Of a DNA stretch of 64,000 nucleotides, positions 29,374 to 34,101 are shown piece by piece. The stretch is taken from NCBI GenBank assembly GCA_029252555.1, contig JAQXBF010000011.1, positions 62,001 through 126,000 of the forward strand, in the 5' to 3' direction. Positions within the stretch are counted from its first letter, which is position 1. Every line of letters begins with the position of its first letter. The notes under the pieces were generated by a model, which saw only the letters and a list, made by a program, of their open reading frames with translations, was not told the origin of the DNA and made no database searches. A program made the translations under genes and the position numbers. The DNA is from Porticoccaceae bacterium. GTDB taxonomy: Bacteria; Pseudomonadota; Gammaproteobacteria; Pseudomonadales; Porticoccaceae.

Positions 29374-32196
29374 ATGGATACCATTCAGGTACGGGGCGCA
29401 CGCACCCACAATCTTAAGAATATTGATCTCGATATTCCCCGTGACAAGCTGATTGTTATCACGGGCTTATCGGGTTCGGGTAAGTCATCTCTGGCGTTTG
29501 ATACATTGTATGCCGAGGGCCAGCGTCGCTACGTGGAGTCATTATCCACTTATGCTCGTCAGTTCCTGTCGATGATGGAAAAACCCGATGTCGACCATGT
29601 AGAGGGGCTGTCCCCTGCCATCTCTATTGAGCAGAAGTCCACTTCCCATAACCCCAGATCTACTGTGGGTACTATTACCGAAATTTACGATTATCTGCGA
29701 CTGCTGTTTGCACGGGCGGGTGAACCGCGCTGCCCAGAGCATAGCCAGCCATTAAATGCTCAGACAGTAAGCCAAATGGTCGACCAGGTTATGGGTCTGC
29801 CGGAGGGCAGCAAGTTGATGCTGCTGGCACCAGTGATTAAAGATCGCAAAGGTGAACATGTGCATCTTTTTGATAGTCTGCGGCGCCAAGGCTTTATTCG
29901 CGCCAGAATTGATGGCCTTGTCTGTGACCTAGATGAAGCGCCCACTCTGGATAAAAAGAAAAAACATACTATTGAAGTGGTGGTTGACCGCTTTAAAGTG
30001 AAGGAGGATATTGGCCTGCGTTTGGCAGAATCCTTCGAGACGGCCCTAGCCTTGGCTGAGGGACTGGCCATCATTAGTTATATGGACGGTGGCACCTCAG
30101 ACCAAATTTTTAGCGCCAAATTCGCCTGCCCCATCTGTAACTACAGTCTTAACGAGCTAGAGCCTAGGTTATTTTCCTTTAATAATCCCGCCGGGGCCTG
30201 CCCTACCTGTGATGGTCTGGGTGTGCATCAGTTTTTCGATATAGACCGCGTTATTCAGCATCCAGAAGCCAGTATCTCTGAGGGGGCTATTCGTGGCTGG
30301 GACCGCCGCACATTGTTTTACTACAATATGCTGACCAGTCTTGCCGAGCATTACGATTTCGATATTGAGCAACCTTGGGAAAAACTCTCCGCTATCCACC
30401 AACAGAAGATTTTGTTTGGCAGCGACAACGAAGAGATCACCTTTAACTATGTCAATGACCGGGGCACAGTGTTCCGCCGCCAACATAGCTTTGAAGGTGT
30501 CATTAATAATATGGAGCGGCGCTACCGCGAGACCGAGTCCAACTCAGTGCGGGAAGAACTGTCCAAGTATATGGCAACCTCCGATTGCCCAGAGTGCTCT
30601 GGTACCCGTTTGCGCAAATCGGCGCGCAATGTATTTATCGATGATCGCCGAATTGAAGATATTGTCTGCATGCCCGTGGGCGACTGCTGTGACTATTTTG
30701 AAAATCTTAATCTGCCCGGCCGACAGGGCGAGATTGCCGAGAAAATCGTGAAAGAAATTCGTCAGCGTTTTAACTTCTTAGTGGATGTGGGCCTAAATTA
30801 TCTGTCCCTAAATCGCAGTGCCGACACTTTGTCCGGTGGTGAAGCCCAACGGATTCGGCTGGCCAGCCAGATTGGTGCCGGCCTTGTGGGCGTGATGTAT
30901 ATCCTTGATGAGCCCTCCATTGGCCTGCACCAGCGCGACAATGAAAGGCTATTAAAGACACTGGTACGACTGCGGGATCTGGGCAACACCGTTATTGTGG
31001 TTGAGCATGATGAAGATGCCATCGCCTCTGCTGACTACATTATTGATATAGGCCCAGGGGCTGGTATTCATGGTGGTGAAATTGTTGCCGAGGGCACCGC
31101 CAAGCAGATCAAGGGCAATAAAAATTCCATTACCGGCCAGTTTTTATCGGGTAAGCGTGGTATTTTAATTCCCAAAGTGCGCAATCAAGGTAAAGGCAAA
31201 ACCTTGAAGATTACTGGTGCCACCGGGAATAATCTGCAGAATATTGATCTGGAAATCCCCCAGGGTGTCCTTACCTGTATTACCGGTGTCTCTGGCTCGG
31301 GCAAGTCAACGCTGATAAACGGAACACTCTATCCAGCGGCGGCTGTGGCCTTAAATAAAGCGACCACCTTAAAACCAGCAGCCCATACCAAGATCACTGG
31401 TCTCAGCCACTTAGACAAATGCATTGATATTAATCAGAGCCCTATTGGTCGTACTCCCCGCTCTAACCCAGCGACCTATACAGGCATCTTTACCCCAGTT
31501 CGTGAACTCTTTGCTGGTACACAGGAAGCCCGCTCTCGAGGCTATAACCCTGGCCGCTTTAGCTTTAATGTCAAAGGTGGTCGCTGTGAGGCCTGTCAGG
31601 GGGATGGCGTGACCAAAGTAGAGATGCACTTCCTGCCAGATATCTATGTGCCCTGCGATGTCTGCAAAGGCAAGCGCTATAATCGCGAGACCTTGGATAT
31701 TCTCTATAAAGGTAAAAATATCCATCAGGTTCTAGAGATGACTATAGAAGATGCGCGAGAATTTTTCGATGCAATCCCCGCTATTGCGCGCAAACTGCAA
31801 ACCTTGATTGATGTGGGCCTGTCTTATATCAGCCTCGGGCAGTCGGCAACTACGCTGTCTGGAGGTGAAGCCCAGAGAGTCAAACTCTCCAAAGAGCTAT
31901 CAAAAAGAGATACTGGCAAGACTTTATATATTCTCGACGAACCCACCACCGGGTTGCATTTCCATGATATCGAGCAGCTTTTAGCGGTGCTTCACCGCTT
32001 GCGGGACCATGGCAATACAGTAGTGGTTATTGAACATAATCTGGATGTCATAAAGACAGCGGATTGGATTGTCGATCTGGGGCCAGAGGGTGGCTCCGGG
32101 GGCGGGCAGATTGTCGCTCAGGGTACTCCGGAAGAAGTGGCTCTGGTTAAAGGCTCCCATACAGGGCACTTTTTGAAGGATATTCTGGCGCGCTAA
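29374..32196 (+). CDS. uvrA: UvrABC excinuclease subunit A
   Basis: [53 protein letters not shown]; two ABC modules; 940 aa. Confidence 0.99.
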
Positions 32197-32912
32197 TCAA
32201 CGGCAGCTTCTGAGAAGCCAGCCTGCCAGGATGTGTAGTCTGCAATCATTTCATCAATAGCGGTCTGCTGATATTCCCGCAGGCCGCTGAGAATGATTTT
32301 CTTAACCCCATAGCCAACTTCATCCGCGCCATCCATCAGGCGAAACTGCAACTCAACATCGCCTCGCTTGCCATTCACAATCATCTTGCGGCCTGCCAAC
32401 GCCACCGCCGGCTTGACCAAATCCAATCGACTCAAATTTAGCGACATAGATTCATAGATCGCCAAAGGTCGCGCCGGATTAATCATGACATTCTGTTCGG
32501 CCATTAACGGCACCAGGATATAGGGGAAATTCTGCCCCGAGAAAAGCACATAGCTTCTCACTAACTGCTCTATCATCTGCTGGTTAAACTCAGGCTCCCC
32601 TATGCGGCTAACCTTTAGATAACATTTATCCCGAGCATCTAAGATTTCAAAATGACTCTCGGGCGCATTCGGAAACAGCAGGGCCGTATCTGCAGAAACC
32701 ATACCAGAGAAGGTAAAGGACATTTCCTGACTCAAGCCATAACGCTGCAGTGCAATGGCAAACAGTAAATCCCCAGGCACGCAGAACCGCTTGCTGTCTG
32801 CATCATGAATAGGGTTAAAGTCATTGCTTACGGACTTGGCAAAACGACTGCCCTGCTCTGCGCTGATGGTTAAATCTGTTGAGTTCTGACTGTAGAAGCT
32901 ATCGAGAAACAT
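32193..32912 (-). CDS. DUF3581 family protein
   Basis: [34 protein letters not shown]; recalled DUF3581 pattern. Confidence 0.75.
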
Positions 32913-32976
32913 AAATTGAGAAGTGCCCTGAAACTGTGCCGCGCATGGTAATGGGTTTTAGCCTCAGGTCAATAGC

Positions 32977-33019
32977 AATGTAATAAATACTTTACATTGT
33001 GTAATGTATTTATTACATT
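32977..33019. promoter_or_regulatory. 43-bp compound palindrome, probable operator
   Basis: AATGTAATAAATAC t TTACA ttg TGTAA t GTATTTATTACATT: outer 14-bp and inner 5-bp arms are exact inverted repeats; contains two TGTAA-N8-TTACA units. Confidence 0.7.
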
Positions 33020-33048
33020 ATGTCCACTGGCAACTTAGAAGAAGACTT

Positions 33049-33495
33049 ATGGACATATCGGCTCGAGAAAAAAATATCTGGTTAGAACTGCTTATTACAA
33101 TCGGTATTTCCGTTTATTATTTCTTCAAAACCTATCAGCTCAATGGCTGGTCTGAAGTTGCCAGTGTTGAAATGGGGTTAGTAGTGAGGAATGTTATCTT
33201 CATTGCCATAGTCGCCACTGTGATTCTTTATACTCTATTCAGCCGACAGCCTGAAGAGGACGAAGATGAGCGAGACAAGCTGATCAAAGCTAAGGGGAAC
33301 GTCTGCGCCTATTATTGTCTGACACTTTGCTGTGTTTTTCTTGTTGGCCATATTTTTATCAACGAAATCTCAATGCTTCCAAGTCGACTGCCGGAAGTGG
33401 ATGGAGCTTTCTTGGCACATTTACTACTGATCGCACTTATGCTCACAGAGGTGGTTAAGAGTAGCACTCAGTTAGTGGCTTACCGGAAACATTGA
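33049..33495 (+). CDS. Small membrane protein of unknown function (about 148 aa)
   Basis: Several hydrophobic TM-like segments; conserved-looking [19 protein letters not shown] loop; start at MDISAREKN because the upstream ATG lies inside the palindrome. Confidence 0.7.
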
Positions 33496-33499
33496 CGGC

Positions 33500-33724
33500 A
33501 TGGCAAAACAAACAATTGAAAATGACATCCGCAAGCTGCGCTTCGCTAAAGGAGAAATGACTCAGGCTCAGCTAGCTGCTGTGGTGGGCGTAACCCGCCA
33601 AACTATTCTTTCGTTGGAAGCCTGTAAATACTCTCCATCTCTAGAGCTGGCCTTTAGAATAGCGACGGTTTTTGAAGTACCTCTCGAACGGGTTTTCAGA
33701 TTCTCGGCTACAGAGTTAGACTAG
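33500..33724 (+). CDS. Small XRE-family HTH regulator
   Basis: 74 aa: [47 protein letters not shown]. Confidence 0.92.
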
Positions 33725-34101
33725 TCTAGCTCTGCCTCAAACTCCTCCAGAAGGTCCAGTGGCTCCATCTCCTGTCCCTCTAGCGCCTCATTCCAATTAA
33801 CGCCGGCCATAAGCACATCGCCATGCATACCAGGCAACCAGTCATCAAGAAACTCTTCCATTTCAATAGCCACCGGCTGGTAAATGCCCCAGTCGCCATT
33901 GCAGAGTGCCTGGGCCAGTCGCTGGTCTGACCAAAAAGGAATAACACCAATACTGTCACTCTCTGTAGAGCTTACTAGCGACCAGTTGCCTTCCCTGTCC
34001 TGTAGACCCCAGACACAGCCATTCTCTAGGCATTCCACCACCATGCGGTCAAGGTTTTCCTGTAGGTTATCGGACAGTAGCTCCACGGTTTTACTCAACA
34101 C
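33721..34101 (-). CDS. DUF2750 domain-containing protein
   Basis: [42 protein letters not shown]...; recalled DUF2750 pattern. Confidence 0.7.

Follow-up and report, generated by a model that had tools for sequence, protein, structure and literature searches.

A 43-bp palindrome upstream of a membrane protein-XRE gene pair as the probable tandem operator of a proposed autorepressed sensor/repressor operon

What is the role of a near-perfect 43-bp palindrome located between a DUF3581 gene and a divergently oriented pair of small genes, one encoding a membrane protein and the other an XRE regulator? The preliminary description of this DNA recognized a compound palindrome with a single centre that can also be read as two TGTAA-N8-TTACA operators, and proposed that it is an autoregulated operator bound by the XRE protein, possibly with divergent control. 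Sequence and coordinates of the repeat proved to be as described: its arms (32977-32996 and 33000-33019), 20 nt each, are 95% complementary (19 of 20 pairs) and flank a 3-nt centre, and both TGTAA-N8-TTACA elements are present (32979-32996 and 33000-33017). A search of the whole 2.3-Mb assembly for this motif, as suggested in the same description, located it at the palindrome alone and nowhere else. Within the 64-kb window, that is, the whole stretch of DNA analysed, no other repeat combines 19 or more of 20 pairs with a loop of at most 8, and no comparable repeat occurred in 60 first-order Markov random windows. At the composition of the palindrome (84% A+T) the chance expectation is about 0.04 per window. 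The following features of the region are relevant.

32193-32912, minus strand: DUF3581 gene (Pfam E = 4.9e-93)
32945-32972, minus strand: predicted DUF3581 promoter TTGACC-16-TACCAT, abutting O1 without overlap
32977-32997, plus strand: putative operator O1, 21-bp unit with the 18-bp core TGTAATAAATACTTTACA at 32979-32996
32991-33019, plus strand: predicted sigma-70 promoter of the pair, TTTACA-17-TACATT, embedded in O1/O2
32998-33018, plus strand: putative operator O2, 21-bp unit in the register of O1, with the 18-bp core TGTAATGTATTTATTACA at 33000-33017
33019-33039, plus strand: possible degenerate third site, weak, left half-site only (from alignment and three-site score)
33049-33495, plus strand: small membrane protein, 148 aa
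33500-33724, plus strand: CylR2-like XRE (HTH_3) regulator, 74 aa, predicted to bind O1/O2
beyond the XRE gene, convergent: DUF2750 gene

The gene calls made previously (divergent DUF3581, membrane protein, XRE) were right in substance, with a gap of 4 nt separating the latter two genes. The XRE protein matches HTH_3 of Pfam with E = 4.3e-11 (43.1 bits; curated cut-off 23), and its DNA-reading helix, RQTI, is invariant across 65 XRE homologues. CylR2 is the closest named relative of solved structure (E = 8.2e-11; profile 2.5e-18), and the alignment of residues 8-68 with CylR2 residues 4-63 covers nearly the whole chain. Taken mechanically, the longest ORF of the membrane protein gene starts at 33004, within the palindrome; in alignments its relatives agree with a start at 33049. 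The structural model of the protein (pLDDT 90.8) comprises four long helices (5-29, 40-64, 74-107 and 119-147) with a DERDKLI motif (residues 73-79) between helices two and three, and D-E-R-D-x-x-I is nearly invariant in an alignment of 62 relatives. Comparison of the model with PDB structures did not retrieve a similar fold (best E = 2.6). A Pfam search with the window protein gave no match to DUF2178 (PF09946), a family that is matched weakly by 15 of the 62 relatives (best 2.3e-5), and on these sequence matches the protein may be called distantly DUF2178-like. Close homologues of the two genes co-occur, being present in the same nine of nine genomes of the window's family.

Two further inverted repeats were observed around the start of the membrane protein gene. 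ATGTCCA / TGGACAT (33020-33027, 33048-33056) flanks the start codon, which is included in the predicted hairpin; its upstream half was not visible in those upstream regions of relatives that were inspected. The other is a perfect 12-nt repeat, CACTGGCAACTT / AAGTTGCCAGTG (33025-33036 / 33155-33166), with one arm in the leader and the other within the gene.

Scanning bacterial genomes with the XRE protein yielded 80 loci from Bacillota, Chloroflexota, Bacteroidota and allies, Actinomycetota, Pseudomonadota and Planctomycetota, and further from Spirochaetota, Nitrospirota, Marinimicrobia, Acidobacteriota and, as one fragment, Verrucomicrobiota, the phylum names being in part assigned from the titles of the organisms. 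At every examined locus an ORF of usually about 148 aa lies directly upstream of the XRE gene and ends a few bases before its start; in the loci aligned this ORF is of the membrane type. For motif analysis, 84 non-redundant regions upstream of the membrane-XRE pair, representing at least nine phyla, were used. A motif-free scan, in which perfect 4-bp dyads were counted at each gap, revealed a strong excess at gap 12 (z = 12.5) and gap 10 (z = 11.3; all dyads, 84 regions), and ATGT-N12-ACAT is present in 54 of the 84 regions. Gaps 8, 10 and 12, all strongly in excess, represent one site read from different edges, and a lesser excess at gaps 1, 3, 5, 6 and 7 stems partly from the junction of adjacent sites. 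Relative to the best site, the score profile of ATGTA-N10-TACAT peaks exactly at +21, +42 and +63, and a spacing of 21 bp outscores all others from 10 to 44. Compared with dinucleotide shuffles, three-site arrays are present at P<=0.01 in 74 and two-site arrays at P<=0.05 in 77 of the 84 loci, scores that were tuned on the loci that revealed the motif, whereas the dyad scan is motif-free. Five loci (L045, L050, L067, L070 and L085) have no array just upstream of the pair and carry two-site arrays of 14-18/20 located 330-950 bp farther up, possibly ahead of an additional gene. The upstream region of L052 is truncated where its contig ends, and L017 and L057 have no array either just upstream or farther up. 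The comparison of orthologous upstream regions that had been proposed at the outset thus uncovered a motif and a 21-bp register that are conserved across phyla. In the window the three-site array scores 24/30, with a poor third site; the family consensus for O1 derived from the aligned arrays is ATGTAAAAAATACTTGACAT.

Some variation of this arrangement was noted. In L038, L072, L076, L079 and L084 (several of them Actinomycetota-type, one Chloroflexi and one other bacterium) the third operator is displaced by about half a helical turn with respect to O2, roughly 26 bp rather than 21. Sphingomonad-type loci (L045, L067, L070, L081 and L087) tend towards ATGTT/AACAT in place of ATGTA/TACAT with an unchanged recognition helix. 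CylR2-like regulators that are more distantly related (about 40% identity) are encoded beside other small membrane proteins in L131-L135; L131, L133 and L135 have one good site each (e.g. ATGTAAAGTAAACTTTACAT in L135), and the site type may therefore extend to a wider class.

The alignments also bear on why the repeat has a single centre. Across the family, the 10-bp core of O2 is 5.07/10 identical on average to the reverse complement of the O1 core, compared with 4.57 for shuffled pairings (sd 0.13; none of 2000 shuffles reaches 5.07), whereas direct, non-inverted similarity of the two cores is not raised above shuffled pairings. With 9/10 the window is an extreme case of this inverse likeness. 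Judged from these comparisons, the palindrome owes its single centre to the juxtaposition of two symmetric sites whose cores resemble each other inversely, and is in this sense a by-product. The compound palindrome noticed originally is thus present but is not itself the functional unit, which appears to be the tandem 21-bp operator, found here in two good copies. Mirror-image cores may be preferred by neighbouring dimers, and kinship among the loci could contribute to the effect.

The predicted promoter of the pair is interwoven with the two operators. The right arm of O1, TTTACA (32991-32996), coincides with the predicted -35 element and that of O2, TACATT (33014-33019), with the predicted -10 element. 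This arrangement is family-wide: the O1 right arm reads TTGACA or TTTACA, matching a -35 hexamer, and 17 bp further the O2 right arm reads TAC plus an A+T-rich end whose last base is T, matching a -10 hexamer. The alternation between TTGACA and TTTACA, with G or T as third base, seems to balance promoter consensus against operator consensus, and the window has the operator-like form. Array, spacing, overlap with predicted promoter elements and linkage to the gene pair are established by sequence comparison. The same overlap makes it very unlikely that an RNA hairpin formed by the repeat serves as a terminator, attenuator or leader. Its predicted fold is unusually good (-26.3 kcal/mol for 91 nt, z = -4.7), but as the predicted -35 and -10 elements lie within the repeat, the transcript of the pair should start past it. 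Moreover, a U-run terminator is absent, and relatives do not preserve the hairpin (inverse core identity of about 5.1/10 on average) but do preserve half-sites and 21-bp register. An RNA element was rejected on account of the internal promoter and a search of Rfam without a match.

In the window's genus the array tracks the gene pair and not DUF3581. When 30 DUF3581 loci were compared, all six with an adjoining pair scored 17-19/20 for a two-site array, and the 24 without a pair scored at most 13/20, the array being present in none of them. When at most one mismatch is allowed, 7 of the 8 genomes with a pair show the strict two-site pattern at that locus, and among 40 other genomes one has it by chance; a one-mismatch two-site search returned the pair loci, two stray matches and nothing more. 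Arrays are retained by pairs located away from DUF3581 (G025, G026) and likewise accompany the pair of another genus (G075). The distribution of the pair is patchy (8 of about 50 congeners). In several congeners devoid of it, DUF3581 and DUF2750 seem to be direct neighbours (window region 32193-34101), so that the pair looks as if it had been gained or lost there as a unit.

These data speak against a shared operator that would also govern DUF3581, an option raised in the preliminary description that we consider unlikely. O1 starts only 5 bp past the predicted -35 hexamer of DUF3581, and a bound protein could therefore affect that promoter. However, the promoter-like sequence upstream of DUF3581 (gcgcatactaatg...ctcaggtcaag) is shared by many loci with and without the pair, and pairs located elsewhere keep the array without DUF3581. 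Since the DUF3581 upstream region persists in congeners that possess neither pair nor array, divergent control is not supported, and a site linked to DUF3581 as such was ruled out by congeners with DUF3581 but without the array. It is hardly credible that the palindrome arose by chance in A+T-rich intergenic DNA or serves an unrelated regulator: its base composition might invite such a view, but the low expectation at that composition and the cross-phylum conservation ahead of one gene pair argue against both, and chance was ruled out by the cross-phylum array together with the genus comparison. A wide regulon in the genus was considered as well and dropped, two-site matches with three mismatches being uninformative as most genomes had no more of them than the reversed control. 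Within the window's own genome, single TGTA-N10-TACA sites are about as frequent as in the control (18 versus 20).

Taken together, we propose with a probability of roughly 0.88 that the palindrome is the O1-O2 pair recognized by the CylR2-like XRE protein and that the two genes form an autorepressed membrane-sensor/repressor operon. The palindrome is almost certainly an operator, and the XRE protein is very probably its binder. One XRE dimer would occupy each ATGTA-N10-TACAT site, and because 21 bp correspond to two helical turns, neighbouring dimers would lie on one face of the DNA and might cooperate. As the right arms of O1 and O2 are the predicted -35 and -10 elements, occupancy of both sites would shut out RNA polymerase and repress the membrane-XRE operon. 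It is plausible, and rather probable by analogy to the CylR1/CylR2 model, that the repressor is controlled by the membrane protein, which would perceive an envelope signal and lift repression by acting on the XRE protein. That CylR2, the closest named solved relative, has the membrane partner CylR1 points to a self-contained autorepressed switch. With respect to the earlier proposal of an autoregulated, XRE-bound operator, comparative genomics lends strong support to the operator and to its connection with the XRE gene; we infer binding and repression, and likewise the identity of the binding protein, the sign of regulation, cooperativity, sensing and the signal.

Alternatively, the pair might be a toxin-antitoxin unit consisting of a membrane toxin and an autoregulating XRE antitoxin, which would still bind the array. 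A two-gene operon with a 4-nt gap, presumed autoregulation and patchy presence are compatible with this idea, as is a weak similarity of the XRE protein to Y4mF antitoxins. Yet the XRE protein stays below every curated antitoxin cut-off and has a signalling repressor as its nearest named relative of solved structure, and for the membrane protein PADLOC gave no match and neither Pfam nor NCBIfam a toxin family; we therefore regard a toxin-antitoxin function as improbable. A defence system was rejected, only generic HTH matches having been found.

Autoregulation by XRE proteins and multi-site operators are already familiar. In the open-licence literature we found no description of the membrane-XRE pair, its array or DUF2178. 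The chances appear about even that we are dealing with an undescribed, phylum-spanning system in which a four-helix DERD-motif membrane sensor and a CylR2-like repressor respond to a common envelope stress or peptide, and whose invariant 21-bp tandem operator array is woven into its own promoter. The DNA code of a regulator, comprising half-site, spacing, register and promoter overlap, is seldom legible from sequence across this many phyla. It makes a widespread, uncharacterized family of membrane proteins testable, with the operator as a ready reporter for the sensed signal.

Several known systems invite comparison. The operators of the lambda and 434 phage repressors, proteins of the HTH_3 fold, also consist of adjacent dyad sites that overlap promoter elements. 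By contrast, the window array lies in a non-phage region and belongs to one gene pair, not to a bistable switch with two promoters. In Bacillus subtilis, SdpI and SdpR represent a membrane sensor and an autorepressor encoded in one operon; the likeness to the window pair concerns the mode of operation, SdpR being an ArsR-type and not an XRE regulator. Closer is the CylR1-CylR2 pair of the Enterococcus faecalis cytolysin operon, where CylR2 binds to a promoter and induction requires CylR1 (PMC3709268). Common to both cases are a short XRE repressor, homologous to CylR2 and encoded with a small membrane protein, and a repressor sited on a promoter, which is predicted for the window. The two differ in that CylR1 has three predicted helices and the window membrane protein four plus the DERDKLI motif, that the window module stands alone without lantibiotic genes and next to a divergent DUF3581 gene, and that its operators form a 21-bp array at the module's own promoter. 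The signalling step from CylR1 to CylR2 is poorly understood (PMC3709268, PMC5454873), and the pair described here may generalize it beyond one toxin operon.
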